Below the pieces are notes generated by a model that ran no database searches, was not told the DNA's origin, and saw nothing but the letters and a program-made list of their open reading frames with translations. Made by a program: the position numbers and the translations under genes. Positions 27,129 through 38,500 of a DNA stretch of 49,697 bases are shown here, piece by piece. The DNA is taken from contig NZ_MQVR01000010.1 of NCBI RefSeq assembly GCF_001907295.1, positions 1-49,697 of the forward strand, read 5' to 3'. This stretch comes from Bowdeniella nasicola. Its GTDB lineage: Bacteria > Actinomycetota > Actinomycetes > Actinomycetales > Actinomycetaceae. Each line of letters begins with the position of its first letter. The first letter of the stretch is position 1.

Positions 27129-27785
27129 ATGTCCGTGACCACTTCTCCTGCCCCCCGAGATATTCGTGTGATGATCGTCGACGATCACGAGATCGTGCGC
27201 CGCGGAATTGCGGAAATCGTCGACCGAGCCGACGGCCTGATGGTTGTCGCCGAGGCCGGAACCGTGGCGGAAGCCGTCCGTCGCGCGACGCTCGTGCGGC
27301 CCGAGGTCGTGCTCGTCGATTTGCAGCTGCCCGATGGTACCGGCATCGACATCATTAACGCGCTGCGGCAGGAAGTGCCCGACGCCAAGGCCGTCATCCT
27401 CACCTCCTTCGACGATGATGATGCGGTCTCGCAGGCGCTGGATGCGGGCGCGAAGGCCTACCTGCTGAAGACAGTGCGAGGCGTCGAGATCTCCGATGTC
27501 GTCAAGGCTGTCGCCGACGGCCGGGTACTGCTCGATGAGCGTACGGTCACGCGTCGTCGGGCCGATCACGAGGATCCCACCGCGAATCTCACGCCGTCGG
27601 AGCGTAAGGTGCTGGAGCTCATCGGTGATGGCCTGTCCAATCGCGAGATCGGCGAACGGCTTGGAGTCGCGGAAAAGACCGTGAAGAACCACATCACCGC
27701 GCTGCTTGCCAAGATGGGTTTGCAGCGCCGCACCCAGGTTGCCGCCTGGGTCGCTGGCCAGCGCGCCGCCGGCTGGCGCCAGTAG
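27129..27785 (+). CDS. DosR/NarL-type response regulator
   Basis: 218 residues. The receiver domain has VMIVDDHEIVRRG, phospho-acceptor Asp at about 64 in VVLVDLQLPDGTG, VILTSFD and the conserved Lys at about 114. The LuxR-type HTH at 153-215 has LTPSERKVLELIGDGLSNREI and VAEKTVKNHITALLAKMGLQRRTQ. The recognition helix EKTVKN is identical to that of mycobacterial DosR (DevR), whose Lys179, Lys182 and Asn183 contact DNA, and AEAGTVAEA and LPDGTGI also resemble DosR. It converges on the sensor kinase gene with abutting stops (TAG then CTA). TAGGGT at 27122-27127 is a likely -10; a leaderless message would then start at the in-frame GTG at 27135. Confidence 0.92.
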   Translation: MSVTTSPAPRDIRVMIVDDHEIVRRGIAEIVDRADGLMVVAEAGTVAEAVRRATLVRPEVVLVDLQLPDGTGIDIINALRQEVPDAKAVILTSFDDDDAVSQALDAGAKAYLLKTVRGVEISDVVKAVADGRVLLDERTVTRRRADHEDPTANLTPSERKVLELIGDGLSNREIGERLGVAEKTVKNHITALLAKMGLQRRTQVAAWVAGQRAAGWRQ

Positions 27786-29447
27786 CTAGGTGAGCGGGAC
27801 CTGCCAGCTCAGCAGGGTCCCGCGCCCGATCTCCGGTCGTCCCAGCGAGAAACTGCCGCCGTGACGACGTGCCCGCGCGGCAAGATTATCGAGCCCGGAA
27901 CGGCGCGTGGAGCGCGGATTGAGCCCTGCCCCGTCGTCCTCGACCTGGATTTCGATCCGGCCCGTCGGACCCCGTCCGATCACGCCGACGCGCACCTGCA
28001 CCGAATGCGCCCGCGCGTGCCGCGCCGCATTCGATAGGCCTTCACGAACGACCGCGACGACGTCATCGGCGATATCGGGATCGATACGCGCATCGAGCTG
28101 ATCTGTCAGTGTCCCATCATCGGAGTCATCGACATCCTGACCATCGACGGAAATCACGAGCGAGGGCGCATACCCGAGCGACGTGCGCCCGAGGGATGCC
28201 TCGCGCCGGAGGCGCTCGACGATGATCAGGGCCTCATCGGGTTCGCGCAGCCGGTGCACGATCGAGCGGATCTGGCGCACGGATTCGTCGACGGACGACA
28301 GTGAGTATTCGAGCACCTCGGCGAGGTCTTCGCGGCCGAGCGCGCGCACCTGTTCGCGTGCGGACTCGAGCTGCATGCCGGTCGCGAACAGCTGCTGAAT
28401 GGCCAGGTCGTGCAGGTCGCGGCCGATGCGCGCGCGTTCGTCACCGAGGTTTGCGAGGTCTTCGGCGTGGCGGGCCGCGGCGAGTTCGAGGGCGAGCGCC
28501 GCCTGCTGTGCCACGGCCTCAGCCATGAGCAGATCCGTGCCTTCGAAGGGCGGGCGGCCGGGTTTGCGCAGCAGGATCATGACGCCCATCCGGGCGCCGC
28601 GTACGATCATCGGGGCGTACAGCGCCGAACCGAAATGCCGCAGCGCGGGAACCTTGAGCGAGGAGACACGCTCCAGGGAGTCGACGATGAGGCCCGTGCC
28701 GTCAGCAAGCGCCGTCAGGGCGCGCCCATCGGAGGGGAAGACGGTGCCGAGCAGGTCGCGGGAGCGGTAGCCATCCGAGATCTCGCAGGCCCACGACGTG
28801 CCGAGGCTCGGTAGCACGATGCAGCTCGTGTCGGCGCCCGCGACCTCGCGCACGCGGTGCGCGATCATCTCGAGGGCTTCTTCCTCCTCGGTGCCCTCCA
28901 GCAGGGTCGTCGTGATCTCCTGGGAGACCTGGATCCAGCGCTCCCGGGCCCGTGCCATGCCGTACAGGCGCGAGTTCTCGACGGCGACCGCGGCGGCCGC
29001 GGCGAGCGACTGGATCGTGCGCACGTCCAGGCGCGTGAAGCCGCCGTCTTTTTCCGCGAGGTAGAGCCGCCCGAAGACCTGGTTGCGGATCGTCACGGGA
29101 ACGCCGAGGAAGGAGCGCATCGGCGGATGCCCTTCGGGAAAGCCCCCGAAGTCCTCGTGCGTCGTCAGGTCCTCAAGGACGAGCGCGCCGTCGGCCGGGA
29201 TCGCGCCGAGCACGCCGGTGCCGCGCGGCGGGTGGCCGAGCTTTGTGACGTCGTCGGGCGCCATCCCGTGGTGGACGAACTGGACGGTCGAACCATCGGA
29301 GGCGAGGACGCCCAGCGCGGCGTAGCGCGCGTCGGTCAACTCGGCTGCGAGATCGACGAAGCGCTGCAGCAGTTCGGGCGTCTCCAGCGTCGCCGTGAGA
29401 TCGAGCGCTGCTCCGTATAGCGCGTCGGGCGCGTAGTCCTCACTCAT
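27786..29447 (-). CDS. DosS-like GAF-GAF sensor histidine kinase, probable heme-based
   Basis: 553 residues, soluble. GAF-1 (about 15-160) contains GFPEGHPPMRSFLGVPV and FGRLYLAEKDGG. These align without gaps to the mycobacterial DosS segment holding the proximal heme ligand His149 and distal Tyr171, here His107 and Tyr129 (same 22-residue spacing). GAF-2 is at about 180-325. The HisKA_3 box ERARIGRDLHDLAIQQLF has the phospho-His at about 346, and the ATPase has REGLSNAARHARA and VEDDGAGL. The DosS family senses O2, NO and CO or redox state through heme. It overlaps cydC by 4 bp, so it is made with the CydDC transporter, while its likely partner regulator is on the opposite strand. Confidence 0.9.
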   Translation of the reverse strand: MSEDYAPDALYGAALDLTATLETPELLQRFVDLAAELTDARYAALGVLASDGSTVQFVHHGMAPDDVTKLGHPPRGTGVLGAIPADGALVLEDLTTHEDFGGFPEGHPPMRSFLGVPVTIRNQVFGRLYLAEKDGGFTRLDVRTIQSLAAAAAVAVENSRLYGMARARERWIQVSQEITTTLLEGTEEEEALEMIAHRVREVAGADTSCIVLPSLGTSWACEISDGYRSRDLLGTVFPSDGRALTALADGTGLIVDSLERVSSLKVPALRHFGSALYAPMIVRGARMGVMILLRKPGRPPFEGTDLLMAEAVAQQAALALELAAARHAEDLANLGDERARIGRDLHDLAIQQLFATGMQLESAREQVRALGREDLAEVLEYSLSSVDESVRQIRSIVHRLREPDEALIIVERLRREASLGRTSLGYAPSLVISVDGQDVDDSDDGTLTDQLDARIDPDIADDVVAVVREGLSNAARHARAHSVQVRVGVIGRGPTGRIEIQVEDDGAGLNPRSTRRSGLDNLAARARRHGGSFSLGRPEIGRGTLLSWQVPLT

Positions 29448-31219
29448 ACGATCTCCTTTTCCTGCTCTAGCAGCCAACGATAGTGTGCGTTGCGCGTGAT
29501 CAGCTCATCGTGGGTGCCCCGGTCGATAATCTGGGCGGGGCCCTCGCTGCCGAGCATGATGACCTCATCGGCCGCGCTAAGCGGCGTGAGGCGGTGCGTG
29601 ACAAGGACGACGCTACGCCCCTCGGACTTCATCGTGGCAAACAGGTCCGCGATGAGGGCGTCGGCGGTCGGCCCGTCCAGGTGTTCGGCGGTCTCATCCA
29701 TGACGAGGATCGGCGCGTGGGACCCGAGGGCACGCGCCAGCAGGATGCGGCGCCGCTCGCCGCCCGAGACGGTGTGTCCATCGGAGCCGAGCACGGTGTG
29801 CAACCCCTCGGGCAGCGCCGCGAGCCAGTCGCCCAGGCCCGCGCGCTGCAACAGCGCCGTGGCGCCTTCGTCGGTGAGCGAGCCGTTGCCGACGCGCAGG
29901 TTTTCCAGCAGGCTCGTGTGGAAGATATGCGCGTCCTCTTCGGTCACGGCAACCATGCGCGCCAGGTCGGTGCGCGTCGCCTCCGTGCCGTCCAGCAGGA
30001 TCTTCCCGGAGCGGGCGGGGATAAAGCCCGCGAGGGTCGCGAGCAGTGTCGTCTTCCCGATGCCCGACGGCCCGACGATGGCGACGCTGCCGCGCGGCGG
30101 CACGGTGAGCGAGATATCGGAAATCACGGTCTCGGCGTCGGGCCAGCCGGCGCTGACGTCCCGCAATTCGAGGCTGGCTGAAGCACTCCGGCCACCGGAC
30201 GAGGCGGCCGGAGCCGGGGCGGGATCGAGGTCTTTGGACAGCGGCTCGGTGACGGGAGCGCCGTGCGCCGCATCGAGGAGCGAAAGGATCCGGGAGGCCG
30301 CAGCCGAGGAGCGCACGAGCTGCACCGCGGCCGGGCCGAGCAGGGCGGTCGCCTCAAATGCGGCAAGCGGGGTGAGGACGACGACGGCGAGCTCGACCTC
30401 GTTCAACTGGCCCGCGTGCAGCGCATTGATGCCGACGACCACCGCGCCGATGACCGCGGCCAGCAGCGCGAGCGTGTCGAAGCCCTGACCCAGCGCGGCG
30501 GGCAGTGCCGCCCGGTCGGAGGCGGCCGACAACTCCCGTTCGTGCCGCGAGATGCGGTCGTGCAGCTCGGGAAGGCGTCCGGCAACCTGCAGCTCGGAGG
30601 CATGCTCGAGCGAGGTCAGTGCGTCGGCGGCGAGCTCGATCTCGGACTGTCGGCGCGACAGTTCGGAGATCTTCGCGCCGCGCATCGTGAAATAGGGGCC
30701 GAGGATCCCGGCCGCGAGCTGACACAGCGCCACGATGAGCGCGATGAGCGGGGAGAAGAACGCGAGGAAGACGACGACGCCGATTCCGACGCTCGCTGCG
30801 ACAGCTGCGGGCAGGAAGGACAGGACGACGACGTTAGCGAGTTCTTCGACATCGCTTGAGGTCCTTGCAAGCAGGTCGCCGCGGCGCAGGTTCTTCAGCG
30901 AGGCGACGTTTCCGCGCGAGACGATTCGATAGGTCTGGACGCGAATCTCGGCCATGCCATCGAGAGCGACGCGATGGGAGGCGAGGCGCTCGAGGTAGCG
31001 CAGCACTGGACGCGACACGCCGAAAGTCCGTACCGCGACGGCCGCAACCGTGAGCGTCAAGACGGGCGGCATCTGGGAGGCGCGCGCAATGAGCCACGCG
31101 GCAACCGCAGACAGGGCGACCGCCGAGCCGAGGCCGAGCGTGCCGTACAGGACCGCAAGGGCGAAGGCGGGCTTGGAGATCTTCAACAGCCGCACGGCGC
31201 GGCGCAGATCGTTAGTCAC
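29444..31219 (-). CDS. cydC: Thiol reductant ABC exporter subunit CydC
   Basis: 591 residues. An N-terminal ABC exporter membrane domain (about six segments from FALAVLYGTLGLGSAVALSA) is fused to an ATPase with Walker A GPSGIGKTTLLATLAG, signature VSGGERRRILLARALG and Walker B LVMDETAEHLD. CydDC exports cysteine and glutathione-type thiols and is needed to assemble cytochrome bd. The Walker B is followed by AEHLD, as in other CydC proteins. GTG start at 31219 overlaps cydD by 8 bp, and the stop overlaps the sensor kinase start. Confidence 0.92.
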   Translation of the reverse strand: MTNDLRRAVRLLKISKPAFALAVLYGTLGLGSAVALSAVAAWLIARASQMPPVLTLTVAAVAVRTFGVSRPVLRYLERLASHRVALDGMAEIRVQTYRIVSRGNVASLKNLRRGDLLARTSSDVEELANVVVLSFLPAAVAASVGIGVVVFLAFFSPLIALIVALCQLAAGILGPYFTMRGAKISELSRRQSEIELAADALTSLEHASELQVAGRLPELHDRISRHERELSAASDRAALPAALGQGFDTLALLAAVIGAVVVGINALHAGQLNEVELAVVVLTPLAAFEATALLGPAAVQLVRSSAAASRILSLLDAAHGAPVTEPLSKDLDPAPAPAASSGGRSASASLELRDVSAGWPDAETVISDISLTVPPRGSVAIVGPSGIGKTTLLATLAGFIPARSGKILLDGTEATRTDLARMVAVTEEDAHIFHTSLLENLRVGNGSLTDEGATALLQRAGLGDWLAALPEGLHTVLGSDGHTVSGGERRRILLARALGSHAPILVMDETAEHLDGPTADALIADLFATMKSEGRSVVLVTHRLTPLSAADEVIMLGSEGPAQIIDRGTHDELITRNAHYRWLLEQEKEIV

Positions 31220-32927
31220 GGGCGCTCACCTCCAACCGTGTCGAGGTGACCGGCAGGACCGCATCGGCCACCTCAATGAGGCGGGAGCGGTGCGCGACGA
31301 CGAGGACCGTGCAGCCGCGCGCCTTCAGCGCCGCGAGTGCCGCGAGGACGGCGTCCTCGGCCGCGGAGTCGAGGTGTGCGCTCGGCTCGTCGAGAATCAT
31401 CACGGGCGTGGGGGACACCAGCGCTCGGGTGAGCGCGAGACGCTGCGCCTGGCCGACCGACAGACCGTAGCCGCCGTGCCCGATGAACGTATCCCAGCCG
31501 TCGGGAAGCGACGCGACGATGGCGCCGAGCCCGGTGAGTTCGGCCGCGGCCTCCAGCCGAGCCGAGGGTAGATCGGCGCCGCCGGTCAGCAGGGGCGCGT
31601 CAGAGGCTTCCGCATCGTCGAACTGCTGAAGGACCGTCGCAGGCAGGATCGCGGGGCGCTGCGGCACCCACGTGCACCAGCGGTGCCAGCTCTCGCGCGA
31701 GAGGTCGGCTACCCGATGGCTCTCCTCGCCAAGCTGGACACTCACGAACCCGTCGTCGGGATCGACAAGACCGAGTGCCGCCATGACAGCGGTAGTCTTG
31801 CCGGCCCCCGACGGGCCGACGAGCGCGGTGATCTCGCCCGGCTTCGCAACCCCCGATAGCGCAGCGGGGGCGGCGACATCGCGCCCGGGTGCGTGGACGG
31901 TGAGGTCGTGGAACTGAAGCGTGGGGGAGGGCCGCCCATTCGGGTGGGGAAGCTCGCCGCTACCGTCGCTAAGCGTCGGTGAATTCAGGATGTCGAAGGC
32001 CGCATCGGCAGCCGCAATCCCGTCGGCTGAGGCATGGAAGTGCGCGCCCACCTGGCGCAGCGGGTGGAAACACTCGGGCGCGAGCATGATGACGACGAGG
32101 CCCGGCAGCAGCACCATGAGGCCGGTGACGAGGCGCATGCCGACGCCGACCGCGACGAGCGCGACGGAGAGCGTGGCGAGGAATTCGAGGACCGCGCCGG
32201 ATAAGAATGCGACCTTCAGGGTCTGCATCGTCACCTTGGTATAGCTGCGGGCGAGGACCTTGACGCGGGCGATCGGACCGAGTTCCCGACCGAACCCGCG
32301 CAGGGTGGGCAGCCCGGCGAGCAGGTCAATGACCTCGGCGTTCAGCAGCCGCATCTTTGCCAGTCGGGTCGTCGAATACGACTGGGTCATCCAGCCGACG
32401 AGCGCCATAAACAGCGGAATGAGCGGGATCGTGAACAGGATCGTCAGGCCCGCGACCCAGTCGTAGATAATGACGACGAGGAGCGTCGCCGGGGTCACGG
32501 TGGCCGCGAGGATGAGCTGCGGGACATACCGCACAAAATAGGGGCGCAGGTCCTCCAGGCCCTGGGTCAGCAGAGTGACGGTTTCGGCGCCGCTATCGGT
32601 GCTGGCGCGCGGGCCGCGCGCGATCGAATGGTGCAACACCTTGGCCCGCAGTTCGGCGACGACCCGGTCGGCGGCGCGGTGCGCGTACCGCTCGTGCAGG
32701 GTCGTGATGGCGACGCGGGCGAGTGCGACACCGATGAGCGCCCAGATGATCGGTAGCCGGGAGGTGAAGCTCACGTGGTCGGTGATGACGGGAGCGATCG
32801 CATAGGCGATGAGTAGCACTTGGGCGACGATGAGCGCCGCTTTGAGGAACCCGGTCACCGCGGTCCACGCGATATACGTTCGTGTAGCCTTCACGTGAGC
32901 GAGCAGCCGCGGGTCAAGAGGTTTCAC
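31212..32927 (-). CDS. cydD: Thiol reductant ABC exporter subunit CydD
   Basis: 571 residues. ABC exporter half-transporter: membrane domain with GFLKAALIVAQVLLIAYAI and GLMVLLPGLVVIMLAPECFHPLRQVGAHFHA (CydD-typical), then an ATPase with GPSGAGKTTAVMAAL, signature LSVGQAQRLALTRALV and Walker B VMILDEPSAHLD. The signature has SVGQ instead of SGGQ, as often in CydD. GTG start at 32927; GATAAT on the minus strand ends about 8 bases before it, so a second promoter with almost no leader may serve cydDC and the kinase. Confidence 0.92.
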   Translation of the reverse strand: MKPLDPRLLAHVKATRTYIAWTAVTGFLKAALIVAQVLLIAYAIAPVITDHVSFTSRLPIIWALIGVALARVAITTLHERYAHRAADRVVAELRAKVLHHSIARGPRASTDSGAETVTLLTQGLEDLRPYFVRYVPQLILAATVTPATLLVVIIYDWVAGLTILFTIPLIPLFMALVGWMTQSYSTTRLAKMRLLNAEVIDLLAGLPTLRGFGRELGPIARVKVLARSYTKVTMQTLKVAFLSGAVLEFLATLSVALVAVGVGMRLVTGLMVLLPGLVVIMLAPECFHPLRQVGAHFHASADGIAAADAAFDILNSPTLSDGSGELPHPNGRPSPTLQFHDLTVHAPGRDVAAPAALSGVAKPGEITALVGPSGAGKTTAVMAALGLVDPDDGFVSVQLGEESHRVADLSRESWHRWCTWVPQRPAILPATVLQQFDDAEASDAPLLTGGADLPSARLEAAAELTGLGAIVASLPDGWDTFIGHGGYGLSVGQAQRLALTRALVSPTPVMILDEPSAHLDSAAEDAVLAALAALKARGCTVLVVAHRSRLIEVADAVLPVTSTRLEVSARD

Positions 32928-32963: not shown

Positions 32964-33005
32964 ACAACGCGGCGACCGAAAGGGAGGCATCGGTCGCCGC
33001 GTTGT
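32964..33005. other. 16-bp hairpin between cydB and cydD
   Basis: ACAACGCGGCGACCGA (32964-32979) pairs perfectly with TCGGTCGCCGCGTTGT (32990-33005) around a 10-base loop. It lies 10 bp after the cydB stop on the minus strand. No T-run follows, so it may be a partial terminator or an mRNA 3'-end stabiliser that lowers cydDC-kinase expression relative to cydAB. Confidence 0.75.
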
Positions 33006-33015
33006 GGGCTAGGGG

Positions 33016-34134
33016 CTACTGAGAAAGGAAGCTCATCGGCAGCCCAGCGTTCTGCTCGGGGATGTGATCCACGGTCAGGCGCTTGCGGAAGGTCCAGTAG
33101 GACCAGGCGGTGTAGGCCAGGACGACCGGCACCAGGGTGAGGGCCACGATCGTCATGACCGGCAGGGTCTTCTCCGAGCTCGACGCATCCCAGATCGTCA
33201 GCGAGTACGCGGGGTCAATCGAGGACTTCATGACGTAGGGGAACATCGTGGAGAAGATGAGGACGACGGCGAACACGGCCGCGACCGCATTCCCGATGAA
33301 CGCCCAGCCTTCACGCTCCGCGTGGGTCGCCAGCACGACGCCGACGAGCGCGAGCGCCGCGACGACGAGTCCGACCCAGCCGAGCCAATGGCCGCCGTAC
33401 AGCAGCTGCGCGAGGACCGCGAAGATGCCGGCGACAACGAGCGAGACGATCGACGCCTTCTTCGACATTGCAATGGCGCGCTGCTGCAGGCTGCCATCGG
33501 TCTTCAGGGCCAGGAAGATCGCACCGTGCGTCAGGAACAGGCCGCAGGTGACGAGGCCACCGAGGATCGTAAAGGGTGTGAGCAGCGAGAAGAAGCCAGC
33601 GAAACCGCCGGGCATGACGTGCACCGCGTTCGCGAGCGTACCGTCGGTGATCTGCTCGGGCGGGACGACCTCCCAGGTACCACGTTGCAGCACCTCGATC
33701 TTCATACCCTGCACCAGGTTGGCGAAGGCCACGCCCCACAGGAACGTGGCAACCCAGGCGGAGATCGTGTGGAACCAGTCCCACCGCTCCGTCCAGACCG
33801 GATCCGAGATCTTGCCGCGCCACTCGATGGCGACGATGCGCAGGATCAGGACGACGAGGATGACGAACAGGGCGAGGTAGAATCCCGAGAACATCGTGGC
33901 GTACCACTCGGGGAAGGCGGCGAAGGTCGCGCCGCCCGCGGTGAGCAGCCAGACTTCGTTTCCATCCCAGTGGGGGCCGATGGTGTTGAGCATCAGTCGG
34001 CGTTCGCGGGCGTTTTCCGGCAGCCAGCGAAGCAGCATACCGACACCGAAGTCGAAGCCTTCCAAGACGAGGTATCCGGCCCACAGGACCGCGATGAGGA
34101 TGAACCAGAGGACTTGAAGAAATTCGTGACTCAT
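33016..34134 (-). CDS. cydB: Cytochrome bd ubiquinol/menaquinol oxidase subunit II
   Basis: 372 residues with about eight or nine transmembrane helices. VLWAGYLVLEGFDFGVGMLL and TIGPHWDGNEVWLLTAGGA are diagnostic of CydB. With CydA it forms the high-affinity terminal oxidase that reduces O2 to water with quinol and resists NO and sulfide. AAAGGAG lies 7-8 bases before the ATG. Separated from cydA by 19 bp. Confidence 0.95.
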   Translation of the reverse strand: MSHEFLQVLWFILIAVLWAGYLVLEGFDFGVGMLLRWLPENARERRLMLNTIGPHWDGNEVWLLTAGGATFAAFPEWYATMFSGFYLALFVILVVLILRIVAIEWRGKISDPVWTERWDWFHTISAWVATFLWGVAFANLVQGMKIEVLQRGTWEVVPPEQITDGTLANAVHVMPGGFAGFFSLLTPFTILGGLVTCGLFLTHGAIFLALKTDGSLQQRAIAMSKKASIVSLVVAGIFAVLAQLLYGGHWLGWVGLVVAALALVGVVLATHAEREGWAFIGNAVAAVFAVVLIFSTMFPYVMKSSIDPAYSLTIWDASSSEKTLPVMTIVALTLVPVVLAYTAWSYWTFRKRLTVDHIPEQNAGLPMSFLSQ

Positions 34135-34153: not shown

Positions 34154-35626
34154 CTAGTAGACGAAGGTCATCTGCGAGTCGGACTTATCCGCGTCAGGAT
34201 CGTGATCCGGGGTATCTCCGGAGCCGATTCCTTCCTTGGTGTAGCGCGCCATGAGCTTGTACCAGACAACGCCGAGGGCCGCGTACAGCAGCGTGAAAAA
34301 GACCATCGAGATCAACACGTGCGACGTCGTGACCGAGGGGGAGACACCCGCCTGGGTCAGCATGTACACGTTGTCGACCGGGTTCGCCGGGTTCGGTGCG
34401 ACGACCCAGGGCTGGCGGCCCATTTCCGTAAAGATCCAGCCGAGGTTGGATGCGAGGAACGGCATGGGGATCGCGAGCAGGCCGAGGGTAGCAAACCACT
34501 TCTTGTCGGTCACTCGTCCGCCGCGCAGGAGGTAGAGCGCCGCGAGTGCGAGGGCCGCGGAGAAGATCGCGAGGCCGATCATGAGGCGGAAGGACCAGTA
34601 GGTGACGAACAGGTTCGGGGTGTAGTCCTGATCCGGTCCGAACTGGTCGGCGTAGCGTTCCTGCATCTCGGCCTGGACATCCTTGACGCCGGGGAACTCG
34701 CCGTTGAAGTCATTGGACGCCATGAACGAGGCGAGACCGGGGATCGACAGCAGGTGCGTCGAGTTCTCGCAGTCGTTCGACCAGTCACCCACGGTCAGCA
34801 GCGATAGGGCGGCACCCTTTTCGGTGTGGCAAATCGCTTCGGCCGCGGCCATCTTCATGGGCTGCTGCTCCGACATGAGCTGACCCTGGTAGTGGCCGGT
34901 TACCGAGACGCCGATGCCCGAGATGATGATCGTAATCATGCCGAAGATCGCGGCAGGACGCCACACCTCGCGGGCGTGGGCCTCATCGCCCCGTCGGACG
35001 GCGCGCACGATCCACCACGCGGCGATGCCGGCGATGAAGGTACCGGCAGTCAGGAACGAGGCCGTCACGGTGTGCGTGAAGGCCGCAACCGCCGTGTTGT
35101 TCGTGATAACAGCGAGGAAGTCGTCAAGCTCCGCGCGGCCGGTGGCCTCGTTGAACTTGGCGCCCACCGGGTGCTGCATGAAGGAGTTGGCGACGAGGAT
35201 CCAGTAGGCCGAGAGGTTCACGCCGATCGCGGCGAGCCAAATGGACAGCAGATGGATCTTCTTGCTCAGGCGGTTCCAGCCGAAGATCCACAATCCGAGG
35301 AAGGTGGATTCTAGGAAGAACGCGGCGAGGGCTTCAATGGCGAGGGGAGCTCCGAAGATATCGCCAACCATGCGGGAGTATTCGGACCAGTTCATGCCGA
35401 ACTGGAACTCCTGGACGATGCCGGTGGCAACGCCGAGCGCAAAGTTGATGATGAGGAGCTTGCCAAAGAACTTGGTCAAGCGCAGCCAGTGGTCCTTTCT
35501 GGTGCGGTACCACATGGTCTGCATGAGAGCGACGAGGGGAGTAAGTCCGATCGTCAGTGGAACTAAAATAAAGTGGTAAACGGTCGTTATTCCGAATTGC
35601 CACCGTGCGAGGTCGAGTGCTTCCAC
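34154..35626 (-). CDS. cydA: Cytochrome bd oxidase subunit I
   Basis: 490 residues. Markers are RWQFGITTVYHFILVPLTIG with a heme b595-type His at about 18, FQFGMNWSEYSRMVGDIFGAPLAIEAL, ESTFLGLWIFGWNR and the GRQPW motif in TEMGRQPWVV. The periplasmic quinol loop is of the short type. The C terminus is charged (DHDPDADKSDSQ). GTG at 35626 is the chosen start. Two DosR-type boxes lie 51-84 bp upstream, so this gene is the likely target of the linked two-component system. A promoter hexamer is not obvious; TAATGT on the minus strand at 35673-35668 and CATTCA at 35653-35648 are candidates. Confidence 0.96.
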   Translation of the reverse strand: MEALDLARWQFGITTVYHFILVPLTIGLTPLVALMQTMWYRTRKDHWLRLTKFFGKLLIINFALGVATGIVQEFQFGMNWSEYSRMVGDIFGAPLAIEALAAFFLESTFLGLWIFGWNRLSKKIHLLSIWLAAIGVNLSAYWILVANSFMQHPVGAKFNEATGRAELDDFLAVITNNTAVAAFTHTVTASFLTAGTFIAGIAAWWIVRAVRRGDEAHAREVWRPAAIFGMITIIISGIGVSVTGHYQGQLMSEQQPMKMAAAEAICHTEKGAALSLLTVGDWSNDCENSTHLLSIPGLASFMASNDFNGEFPGVKDVQAEMQERYADQFGPDQDYTPNLFVTYWSFRLMIGLAIFSAALALAALYLLRGGRVTDKKWFATLGLLAIPMPFLASNLGWIFTEMGRQPWVVAPNPANPVDNVYMLTQAGVSPSVTTSHVLISMVFFTLLYAALGVVWYKLMARYTKEGIGSGDTPDHDPDADKSDSQMTFVY

Positions 35627-35676
35627 CGAGCTTGCCTTTCGGTCGCATGAATGCTGATGGTGCTTTCACATTAGTT

Positions 35677-35710
35677 GGGACTTAGGTCACCCCTGAGGGA
35701 CTATGGTCCC
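35677..35710. promoter_or_regulatory. Tandem DosR-type boxes upstream of cydA
   Basis: Box A GGGACTTAGGTCAC (35677-35690) and box B GGGACTATGGTCCC (35697-35710). Compared with the core of the mycobacterial DosR consensus, GGGACT-WW-AGTCCC, box B matches 13 of 14 positions and box A 12 of 14. Centres are 20 bp apart, about two helical turns, so both would face the same side of DNA, as in tandem DosR sites. They lie 51 and 71 bp upstream of the cydA start codon. The consensus is recalled from the literature; binding is inferred. Confidence 0.7.
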
Positions 35711-36067
35711 AGCTTCTCGACACCGCTGTCGGCTACATATCGACGCAGTGTCGGAATTCGGCAGAAAACCGGACATTTCGGATAACGTGCACCCCGCCAC
35801 GATCTTTGCCTTTCCGTGTCATTCGGGCGTGTCGCGCATGCCACCGCGCTGGTGAAAGGTGCGTGTGAGATACTCTTCGAAGAGACCCGGGTGTAGCGCA
35901 CCTGCGCCGGGGTTAAAGATGTCCGCCTGATGCGCCGTTTATTCGTCGCTGCAGACGGCGGATGGACCGTGAGAATTCCCGGTCGATAGCAAGACTTTTG
36001 GTGCACCGGCGACGGTGTACCCGCCATACCCGGCGCGTGGAGCGCGGCGCTGCCGGCGAGGAGAAGC
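35711..36067 (+). other. Intergenic region and long leader of rne
   Basis: About 360 bp without a convincing gene. A Ser/Arg-rich minus-strand open frame across it (35701-36507) is a shadow of the rne start. TACTCT (35871-35876) could be an rne -10 but lacks a good -35. The last 60 bp hold CACCG-GCGA-CGGTG (about 36004-36017), a small hairpin, and the AGGAG of rne. A leader of up to about 190 nt is plausible; in other bacteria the rne leader mediates autoregulation. Confidence 0.4.
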
Positions 36068-38500
36068 GTGGATACAACGCCTAACGCGGCTGATTTGCCC
36101 CTATTTTCATCTGCCCCGCAAGCAACCTCGCGGCGCCGCAAGGCCCCCGCGGAGCGCAGCGAGGATAAAAAACTCGATGTCCTGCAAGAACTCGGTCTGA
36201 AGTCCGAGGACGACAAGGCTGACGAGAAGACCCCTGAGGCGAGCGAGCCGAAGTCGGCCGCAGAAGAGACCGGGGGAGCGATGCTGCTCTTCCAGCCTCC
36301 CGAGATCACCCGTCCGGCTCCCCGCAAGTCCGAACCCATCGACAATATCGATGACGAGGACGATGCCGATGATGAGGACACCTCGGAGGTTGAGGAGGAC
36401 TCTGGCCGGGAATCGTCATCCAAGAGCCGTCGTCGCCGCGGTGGACGTGGCGGTCGGGGCCGGAAGAACACCGACGATAAGGACTCGGGGAACGATAAGT
36501 CGGACAAGTCCGATAAGAATGAGCCCGCCGAATCCGATGATCATGACGAGGATGAGTCCTCCGATGACCAGGCCGACGGCTCCTCGCGCCGCACGCGCCG
36601 CCGTCGCCGCCGGGACGCCGGGGAGCGCGCCCGCGCCGAGGTCACCCCGCTGAAGGGCTCGACCCGCCTGGAAGCTAAGCGCCAGCGCCGTAAGGAAGGC
36701 CGCGAGGCCGGGCGTCGCCGCCAGGTCATTACGGAAGCCGAATTCCTCGCCCGCCGCGAAAGCGTCGACCGGATCATGGTCGTGCGCGAAAAGGACGGCC
36801 TGAACCAGATCGCCGTCCTCGAAGACGACATCCTCGTCGAGCATTATGTCGCGCGCCGCACCCAGACCTCGATGGTCGGCAACGTCTACCTTGGCCGCGT
36901 CCAAAACGTCCTGTCCTCGATGGAGGCCGCGTTCGTCGACCTCGGCAAGGGCCGCAACGCCGTGCTGTACGCCGGCGAAGTGAACTGGGATGCCGTGAAC
37001 CTCGACGGTCAGCCGCGCCGCATCGAGCAGGCGCTTTCCTCCGGCGATTCCGTCCTCGTCCAGGTGACGAAGGACCCGATCGGCCAAAAGGGCGCCCGCC
37101 TGACCTCCCAGGTCACCCTCGCCGGCCGCTACCTTGTCCTCGTGCCCTCGGGCGCGATGACCGGCATCTCGCGCAAGCTGCCCGAATCCGAGCGCACGCG
37201 CCTGAAGCGCCTGCTCAAGGACATCGTTCCCGACGGCTCGGGCGTCATCGTGCGCACCGCGGCCGAAGGCGCGACCGAAGAACAGCTACGCGCCGACGTC
37301 GAGCGACTGACCTCCATCTGGAAGGACATCGACAAGAAGGCGAAGAAGGCGAAGTCCGCGCCCGTCCTACTCAAGGGCGAACCGGAACTTGCCGTGCGCG
37401 TCGTGCGCGACGTCTTTAATGAGGACTTCGCCAAGCTCGTGATCTCCGGTGAGGAAGCCTTCTCGACAGTCACGAAGTACGTCAAGGACATGTCGCCCGA
37501 TCTCGCCGATCGCATCGAGAAGTGGGACGGCGAGGACGACGTCTTTGCGCACTTCAGGATTGACGAGCAGCTGTCCAAGGGGATGGACAACAAGGTGTGG
37601 CTGCCCTCGGGCGGCTCCCTCGTGATCGACCGGACCGAAGCCATGACCGTCATCGACGTCAACACGGGCCGGTTCACCGGCAAGGGCGGCACGCTCGAAG
37701 AGACCGTCACGAAGAACAACATCGAGGCGGCCGAAGAGATCGTGCGCCAGCTGCGGCTGCGCGATATCGGCGGCATCATCGTCATCGACTTCATCGACAT
37801 GGTCCTCGAGTCCAACCGCGACCTCGTGCTGCGCCGCCTCATCGAGTGCCTCGGCCGGGATCGCACGCGCCACCAGGTCGCAGAGGTCACGAGCCTCGGA
37901 CTCGTCCAGATGACCCGTAAGCGCGTCGGCCAGGGCCTCGTGGAGGCCTTCTCCGAGCCGTGTGAGCACTGCTCCGGTCGTGGCTTCATCGTGCACGACG
38001 AGCCGGTCGAAAAGGACGGCGGCGATGAGCAGCGCTCGTCGCGGTCGCGCCGCAAGAAGCAGTTGAGCGCGAGCCAGCCGAAGAAGGAGCAGGCGCCCGC
38101 CGAGCTCCCCGATGACGACGAGGCCGCCGCACAGGCGCGCGAAGCCGTCAAGGCGACGCTCGCGACCATCGCAGCCGCTGCCGCTGGCAGCCACGCGAAG
38201 GAAGAAGAGCACAAGCCGGAAAAGCCGGCTAAGCAGGCTAAGAAGGTCGCCGAGCCCGAGCCCAGCAAGTCGGCGGAGCCCGCCGCGCCCCGCGGGTCGC
38301 GCAAGCGCCGCCGCGCGACGTCGAGCTCGACGGCATCCGAATCCGTCAGTGAACCAGTGACGATCGAGGCGGCTCCGACGATTGCTGTGGGCAGCGCGAC
38401 GGTCGTCGCGAGTGGTACCGCATCCAAGCCGAAGCGGCGCTCGCGGCGGGCCACGAGCTCCACGACCGCGCCGGACGTGCCGAACCCCACAGAGAATTAG
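36068..38500 (+). CDS. rne: Ribonuclease E/G
   Basis: 810 residues. The N-terminal ~220 residues are disordered, alternating acidic (DNIDDEDDADDEDTSEVEED) and Arg/Gly-rich (SRRRRGGRGGRGRK, RRTRRRRRR) tracts. The catalytic core has an S1 domain (SMVGNVYLGRVQNVLSSMEA), Mg2+-binding Asp in VIDVNTGRFTG and IIVIDFIDM, and the zinc-link CEHCSGRG. A C-terminal low-complexity tail (about 650-810) is Lys/Ala/Ser-rich. This two-tailed design is typical of actinobacterial RNase E, which initiates mRNA decay and processes rRNA. GTG start with AGGAG upstream. rplU and rpmA follow under a separate promoter. Confidence 0.95.
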   Translation: MDTTPNAADLPLFSSAPQATSRRRKAPAERSEDKKLDVLQELGLKSEDDKADEKTPEASEPKSAAEETGGAMLLFQPPEITRPAPRKSEPIDNIDDEDDADDEDTSEVEEDSGRESSSKSRRRRGGRGGRGRKNTDDKDSGNDKSDKSDKNEPAESDDHDEDESSDDQADGSSRRTRRRRRRDAGERARAEVTPLKGSTRLEAKRQRRKEGREAGRRRQVITEAEFLARRESVDRIMVVREKDGLNQIAVLEDDILVEHYVARRTQTSMVGNVYLGRVQNVLSSMEAAFVDLGKGRNAVLYAGEVNWDAVNLDGQPRRIEQALSSGDSVLVQVTKDPIGQKGARLTSQVTLAGRYLVLVPSGAMTGISRKLPESERTRLKRLLKDIVPDGSGVIVRTAAEGATEEQLRADVERLTSIWKDIDKKAKKAKSAPVLLKGEPELAVRVVRDVFNEDFAKLVISGEEAFSTVTKYVKDMSPDLADRIEKWDGEDDVFAHFRIDEQLSKGMDNKVWLPSGGSLVIDRTEAMTVIDVNTGRFTGKGGTLEETVTKNNIEAAEEIVRQLRLRDIGGIIVIDFIDMVLESNRDLVLRRLIECLGRDRTRHQVAEVTSLGLVQMTRKRVGQGLVEAFSEPCEHCSGRGFIVHDEPVEKDGGDEQRSSRSRRKKQLSASQPKKEQAPAELPDDDEAAAQAREAVKATLATIAAAAAGSHAKEEEHKPEKPAKQAKKVAEPEPSKSAEPAAPRGSRKRRRATSSSTASESVSEPVTIEAAPTIAVGSATVVASGTASKPKRRSRRATSSTTAPDVPNPTEN

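Follow-up and report, generated by a model that had tools for sequence, protein, structure and literature searches.

Conserved DosR-type boxes upstream of cydA point to a probable respiratory switch in a group of actinobacteria

The window, by which we mean the whole analysed stretch of 49,697 nucleotides from a draft genome of 2.64 Mb, carries the genes cydA, cydB, cydD and cydC together with a gene for a DosS-like histidine kinase, all of them on the minus strand (Table 1), and its CydA is 91% identical to that of Bowdeniella nasicola. Of the 120 further family genomes examined, three are from the same genus as the window, and one of these seems to be B. nasicola. The ATG of dosS (an alternative in-frame TTG lies at 29477) overlaps the stop codon of cydC, and the dosR-like gene lies beside dosS in convergent orientation. 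Both regulatory genes are located on the 3' side of the cyd genes and, contrary to the initial annotation, do not flank them. A gene for RNase E/G at 36068 is divergent from cydA and shares the intergenic region with it. Given the terminator-like hairpin between cydB and cydD, which was recognised by eye only, cydAB may be transcribed separately from cydDC-dosS, or transcription may be attenuated between them.

Table 1. Positions of the cyd genes, the dosSR-like genes and the promoter elements in the window
Feature	Position	Strand	Remark
dosR-like response regulator gene	27129..27785	+	218 aa; convergent with dosS
dosS-like histidine kinase gene	27786..29447	-	two GAF stretches, HisKA_3, HATPase; ATG at 29447
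cydC	29444..31219	-	TIGR02868, 539.9 bits, above cut-off
cydD	31212..32927	-	TIGR02857, 526.9 bits, above cut-off
Inverted repeat between cydB and cydD	32965..33004	-	terminator-like, 15-base arms, by eye only
cydB	33016..34134	-	TIGR00203, 326.8 bits, above cut-off; PF02322
cydA	34154..35626	-	PF01654, 537 bits; GTG start at 35626
Predicted -10 hexamer TAATGT	35668..35673	-	23 nt downstream of main box; TANNNT at 22-24 nt in family
Second DosR-type box GTGACCTAAGTCCC	35677..35690	-	centre about -22 from predicted start
Main DosR-type box GGGACCATAGTCCC	35697..35710	-	centre about -42; conserved upstream of cydA
Distal palindrome GACAGCGGTGTC	35719..35730	-	centre 21 bp upstream of main box
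Second distal palindrome GACACTGCGTC	35742..35752	-	counterpart in B. nasicola (L160)

Two DosR-type boxes 20 bp apart had been reported upstream of cydA, with no further site of this kind in the other intergenic regions of the window, and all of this holds: GGGACTATGGTCCC (35697-35710) differs from GGGACTWWAGTCCC at one position and GGGACTTAGGTCAC (35677-35690) at two, the centres lie at 35703.5 and 35683.5, and both boxes are the only matches with up to three mismatches in the window. Read on the cydA strand, they start 84 and 64 bp ahead of the GTG. Two extra GAC...GTC palindromes (centres at 35724.5 and 35747) extend the array to four palindromes with steps of 20, 21 and 22.5 bp. The boxes are thus real as described but unremarkable by motif alone, as the two matches stand against a mean of 2.76 in shuffles, 86 out of 100 of which contained at least two. 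Their significance rests on conservation across species and on position, not on the motif count.

For the comparison among actinobacteria, a CydA scan yielded 80 named loci, 79 of them with enough upstream DNA, and the box was sought within 300 bp of cydA. GGGACYWWRGTCCC was present without mismatch in 11/79 upstream regions, with up to one mismatch in 22/79 and with up to two in 35/79, where 0, 0.10 and 0.57 were expected from the remaining DNA of the same loci; nine rearranged palindromes reached at most 0, 2 and 16, and no GGGACYWWRGTCCC was found in the 300 bp inside cydA of these loci. The genera bearing a box comprise Cellulomonas, Occultella, Oerskovia, Demequina, Amycolatopsis, Saccharothrix, Nocardia, Rhodococcus and Mycolicibacterium (two loci, one of them exact). 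In the 12 loci titled Mycobacterium, the 300 bp upstream contained no box, a single match with two mismatches being located at -375. Two cydA genes lie on MAG contigs titled Proteobacteria (L026) and Acidobacteria (L043), which are possibly mis-binned or mis-named, and are 61% and 57% identical to the cydA of the window.

Within the Actinomycetaceae, the box status was determined for the 110 of 120 genomes with CydA, over 300 bp in 30 and over about 430 bp in 80 of them, while ten were left out, partial hits included. The 30 members with the closest CydA carry the box exactly in 11 cases, with up to one mismatch in 25 and with up to two in all 30 (rearranged palindromes: 0, 0 and at most 15). 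The corresponding numbers for the 80 more distant members are 4, 15 and 30 (rearranged palindromes: at most 0, 0 and 15), 16 of these 30 boxes sit more than 200 bp upstream of cydA, and no box with up to two mismatches was found in 50/80 over the roughly 430 bp read. Missing conservation in related species, named in the initial annotation as a possible refutation, can accordingly be ruled out for the named actinobacteria and the nearest family members, whereas the distant part of the family shows a genuine gap. Because of phylogeny, the family counts cannot be treated as independent.

The position of the main box relative to a putative -10 hexamer is also conserved. TANNNT starts 22-24 nt downstream of it in 29/30 of the nearest family cydA promoters, window included. 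An alignment of the window with the 35 named box-bearing loci, which were chosen for having the box, has the hexamer at this distance in 14/36 sequences and only six more at the remaining 57 offsets. If transcription starts about 7 nt past the hexamer, the box centre lies near -42, and the predicted cydA start of the window is at about 35661. A centre near -42 suits an activator. TANNNT at the spacing of 22-24 nt was seen in none of the 30 box-bearing distant family members; as the distant boxes are weaker and lack this spacing, only the nearer genomes of the family have the -42 layout. The intergenic region being common to both genes, the boxes could in principle serve the divergent RNase E/G gene instead of cydA, but 358 bp separate the end of the main box from 36068 and the -10 spacing reads towards cydA in many genera, which makes such an assignment very improbable.

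This activator position is conserved for the upstream box (35697-35710) only. The second box, which covers about -29 to -16 relative to the predicted start, recurs at the same place in 4/4 Bowdeniella genomes with one or two mismatches to GGGACYWWRGTCCC, and Bowdeniella is the only genus that shows it there. Owing to its position between the predicted -35 and -10 elements, it may adjust the response or restrict it. On the other side of the main box, a GAC-N5/6-GTC palindrome lies upstream at a distance of 18-22 bp in 20/30 nearest family members, against an expectation of about 0.005 per locus; it is either a secondary DosR site or the site of another factor. In Oerskovia and Cellulosimicrobium (L018, L020), sites of the type TTGTGAA...TTCACAA, which we take to be Rex-like, were observed just downstream of the cydA box, and redox and gas control may hence meet at cydA.

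Across the source genome, loose matches to the box are not enriched (121 with up to three mismatches versus 148 for the reversed pattern, and 54 versus 55 in a second loose count). In contrast, exact RGGACNWWNGTCCY occurs at six sites versus none for the reversed pattern, and five of the six lie in promoters, namely those of cydA, nrdD, ctaC, lpdA and arcA. It has to be added that the RGGACNWWNGTCCY pattern was written after some of these sites, including the one at ctaC, were known. The genome-wide scan proposed in the initial annotation thus sets the sites apart in its exact form, but not in its loose form. Exact GGGACNWWNGTCCC was found 21 times in four relatives, and its reversed pattern once. 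Chance palindromes in GC-rich DNA would account for the window count and the loose genome-wide counts, which equal those of shuffles or reversed patterns, but the conservation across species and the exact counts in both the source genome and the relatives refute this explanation, so that practically nothing is left of it.

Nine sites in the source genome have at most one mismatch to GGGACYWWRGTCCC, two of them upstream of cydA, one each at arcA, nrdD, lpdA and gap, and three elsewhere. The nine sites of B. nasicola belong to cydA, gap, arcA, lpdA, nrdD, a SulP-type transporter and an Fe-S oxidoreductase subunit, with two unclear cases; the promoters of cydA, arcA, nrdD, lpdA and gap are boxed in both genomes, and the nrdD and lpdA boxes exist in 4/4 Bowdeniella. 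The arcA box of the source genome is positioned 78 bp ahead of the arcA match, while its second arcA copy and the arcA genes of two relatives (G062, G086) are without a box. Boxes were also found upstream of pflB and fhs in a relative of another genus, and a two-mismatch box upstream of atpB (C121:14832-14845) might extend the regulon to ATP synthase. Regarding the identity of the gene products, the NCBIfam cut-off was passed by ArcA, type I GAPDH, NrdD, lipoamide dehydrogenase, CtaC and ATP synthase subunit a, and not by the Fe-S subunit, SulP-type, PflB and FTHFS proteins. SulP, FTHFS and the Fe-S domain passed the Pfam cut-off, and the PflB and FTHFS sequences are incomplete at the end of the fetched stretch or contig.

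Several candidates were rejected. C183:16826 and C189:108-121 were dropped as DosR sites, both being inside longer inverted repeats that are terminator-like by eye; the latter repeat is near a contig end and probably a terminator. C120:12937 and C68:24668 were not retained as promoter sites, each being within a long open frame. The numbers of sites with up to one mismatch versus the reversed pattern were mixed in six named relatives (9/8, 14/7, 8/14, 11/4, 14/7 and 31/3), without enrichment in B. nasicola (9 versus 8) or Occultella (8 versus 14). Demequina maris (G018), with 31 sites versus 3, possibly has a large DosR regulon. No clear shared regulon emerged from the sites in UBA1383, Cellulomonas, Demequina and Occultella, many of which are in frames or far from starts, and only single cases appear promoter-like.

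The regulator encoded in the window consists of the domains Response_reg (PF00072) and GerE/LuxR (PF00196) according to Pfam, and its best PDB match is DevR of Mycobacterium tuberculosis (3c3w, E 5.7e-51). The core of the recognition helix, AEKTVKN, is identical in the alignment of both proteins and presumably includes the DNA-contacting residues K179, K182 and N183 (DosR numbering). By domains and helix residues, the protein meets the criteria for a DosR/DevR-type regulator, its DNA binding being inferred; membership in MadR (NCBIfam NF047785) was not met, with 152 bits versus the curated cut-off of 300. The kinase comprises GAF_2 in two stretches, HisKA_3 and HATPase_c (Pfam), and its GAF-A domain aligns with DosT (2vzw, 6.2e-32) and DosS (2w3d/2y8h). 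The histidine of HPPM, which we assume to be the proximal heme ligand, is conserved (codon 29127-29129; RDLHD is encoded at 28407-28421). On the evidence of this residue and the domain order, the kinase meets the criteria for a heme sensor of the DosS/DosT type, with heme loading as an inference. For the kinases near cyd in Amycolatopsis-like genomes (L069, L072, L073, L076, L088, L091), the best alignment with DosS does not begin until about residue 180. The heme GAF-A therefore seems to be missing or different there, while the DosR-type gene and the cydA box are kept.

Genes of the DosSR type and cydA are linked well beyond the window. Among 117 family genomes with both genes, dosR is located within 15 kb of cydA in 98, always on the opposite strand, farther away on the same contig in nine and on another contig in ten. 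A DosS relative was present in the fetched stretch of 19/80 named loci, and a cydA box with up to two mismatches accompanied it in 17/19, versus 18/60 of the other loci with upstream DNA. The search for DosR took in 50 of the 80 named loci, leaving out most Mycobacterium and many loci in which a DosR had already been seen. A DosR-like best hit of at least 158 bits was obtained in 43/50 genomes, the border being the gap between 158 and 129 bits, set after the scores were known.

The cydA box with up to two mismatches occurs in 25/43 genomes with a DosR-like protein and in 0/7 without. This distribution argues against the assumption that another DNA-binding protein, LuxR-type or unrelated, owns the GGGACYWWRGTCCC sites and that the linkage of DosR and cyd is coincidental. 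The source genome has eight LuxR-type genes; among the seven that could be aligned by tblastn, AEKTVKN was found only in the DosR of the window, the eighth (L099) giving no alignment and hence remaining outside this comparison. The main box furthermore fits the DosR/DevR consensus NNNGGGHCNWWNGNCCCBNN given in the legend of Table S6 in PMC2947987. Ownership by another protein nevertheless draws support from three Actinomyces-titled loci (L054, L063, L064), in which a good genomic DosR (71-80% identity) coexists with a cydA without box, and from Puerhibacterium (L022), where a DosR-like protein is likewise found with an unboxed cydA. Also, 79/80 of the more distant family members do have a DosR, and in most of these genomes the box is missing or oddly placed. 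Taken together, we regard ownership by another protein as unlikely, albeit not negligible, and retain the DosR-type regulator as the preferred owner.

The gene ctaC of the aa3 oxidase carries a site of a different layout. In the source genome this site (C120:3922-3935) lies over the predicted start, and the box is 22-23 bp ahead of the ctaC GTG in four Bowdeniella. Promoters were read for 30 of the 31 family ctaC genes, taking the best match in about 320 bp as the site, which is within 0, 1, 2 and 3 mismatches in 3, 9, 23 and 28 of them. Rearranged controls gave means of 0, 0, 1.67 and 7.78, although one that shares the GGAC core also reached 28 at three mismatches. Because of the best-match selection, sites with three to five mismatches (7/30) are weak when taken alone. 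TANNNT starts 12-18 nt ahead of the best site in 29/30 family promoters, and the site would thus begin at about +1 to +7, mostly at +2 or +3. A location over the predicted start is a repressor position and predicts, by inference, repression of ctaC. Among 28 named ctaC loci, from a comparison of 29 genomes picked mostly for having a cydA box, seven have a like layout (16-17 nt), namely three Cellulomonas, Oerskovia, Cellulosimicrobium, Puerhibacterium and one MAG. It is missing in the named loci of Occultella, Demequina, Nocardia, Mycolicibacterium and Amycolatopsis among these 28, for which no scrambled control is available.

The cydA box with up to two mismatches was found in 31/31 family genomes with a ctaC match versus 29/79 without one (Fisher p 5e-11, phylogeny not removed), where ctaC counts as absent if a 90-aa query gave no match at E<=1e-6. 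It looks as if operator control of cyd has been kept where a second oxidase exists to choose; given that the ctaC genomes are those with the closest CydA, a single loss could also explain the association.

The ctaC layout also bears on the direction of cydA regulation. DosR might bind and yet repress cydA, since the boxes overlap the -35 element and, in Bowdeniella, the spacer between -35 and -10, where the second box occupies a position at which repression is possible. However, the main box near -42 keeps a near-constant distance to the -10 element across many genera, unlike the ctaC site at +1 to +7, and other sites belong to anaerobic genes such as nrdD and arcA. Cytochrome bd is, moreover, normally a low-oxygen enzyme. 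Repression of cydA thus appears improbable, slightly more so than ownership of the sites by another protein, and activation remains the reading that we follow here.

From the observed sites, their positions and conservation, the gene linkage and the sensor and helix residues, we infer that the boxes are quite likely operators of the neighbouring DosSR system, by which cydA would be activated from -42, anaerobic genes bound and ctaC repressed; binding, the direction of regulation, the gas signal and the promoter and start positions are all inferences. In such a mechanism, the DosS-type heme sensor kinase would phosphorylate DosR when oxygen falls, or when NO or CO rises, and the DosR-type regulator would occupy the operator boxes upstream of the neighbouring cydA. 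The main box would be the activator site, with the weaker in-phase sites on either side of it aiding cooperative binding and the box in the promoter spacer possibly limiting the cydA response. The same regulator may bind an anaerobic or microaerobic set consisting of nrdD, lpdA, arcA and gap, and the site over the ctaC start would repress the aa3 oxidase. Repression of ctaC together with activation of cydA would cause cytochrome bd to replace aa3 at low oxygen.

The earlier proposal that a DosR-type system outside the mycobacteria directly controls cytochrome bd is hence supported by conservation and linkage, with binding still inferred. Its label "dormancy-type" undersells the system, as the sites mark genes of respiration and anaerobic metabolism and the ctaC site predicts repression of a second oxidase. 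A respiratory switch of the DosR type that responds to oxygen and is not only a dormancy switch is probable in a group of actinobacteria, as far as can be judged from sequence, and ctaC would probably be shut off by the DosR-type system, given the conserved sites. We also favour, with noticeably less assurance than the operator assignment itself, that DosSR is a direct oxidase switch in part of the Actinomycetaceae and in Cellulomonas-like actinobacteria, turning cydA on and ctaC off along with nrdD, arcA, lpdA and gap (and pflB and fhs in a relative). If the sites work as read, anaerobic enzymes are switched on by a DosR-type system that also selects between both terminal oxidases.

DosR is known as the mycobacterial dormancy regulator, with genes of the usp, hspX, narK2 and fdxA type as targets of the Dos regulon. 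The window system resembles mycobacterial DosSR/DevR in its best solved-structure matches, the type of box and the type of heme-GAF sensor. In contrast to it, the sites identified here are at genes for oxidases and for anaerobic metabolism, and cyd adjoins the regulator. For Mycobacterium smegmatis, the available part of PMC7739888 places cydAB outside the DevR regulon and states, without showing the data, that the induction of cydA is normal in the absence of DevR; cytochrome bd and the dos regulon are both upregulated under CO in this species, as far as the accessible text of PMC8125079 reports.

OsdR/OsdK of Streptomyces coelicolor is likewise a DosR-type system outside the mycobacteria and has an overlapping regulon (PMC5069765, in part). 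The OsdR consensus AGGGCCGATCGGCCCT differs, among others at box position 4, and the main text of that paper does not contain 'cyd' at all. For Streptomyces lividans, direct control of cydAB by a DosR-type regulator was left open in the available portion of PMC6302529, and the cydA boxes described here allow a direct test of that question. DosR boxes were predicted in Rhodococcus equi in 2010 (PMC2947987). In the literature searched, we saw DosR boxes at either cydA or ctaC described for no organism other than mycobacteria, but supplementary tables (e.g. those of PMC2947987) and most subscription papers were outside the scope, and this is not proof of absence. HrrSA of Corynebacterium glutamicum is similar in being an actinobacterial two-component system that orders oxidase expression; unlike the switch proposed here, it has heme as its signal, acts through sigC and is an activator of both oxidases (accessible part of PMC7337898).

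Should the sites work as read, the choice of oxidase in other actinobacteria would make respiratory control a possible older, or parallel, function of DosR. ArcAB of Escherichia coli activates cyd and represses the high-oxygen oxidase. The proposed switch would share this opposite control of two oxidases with ArcAB, and differs from it in regulator family and signal. Although there are no expression data, the positions of the sites fit an ArcA-like opposite control, with cydA on and ctaC off.
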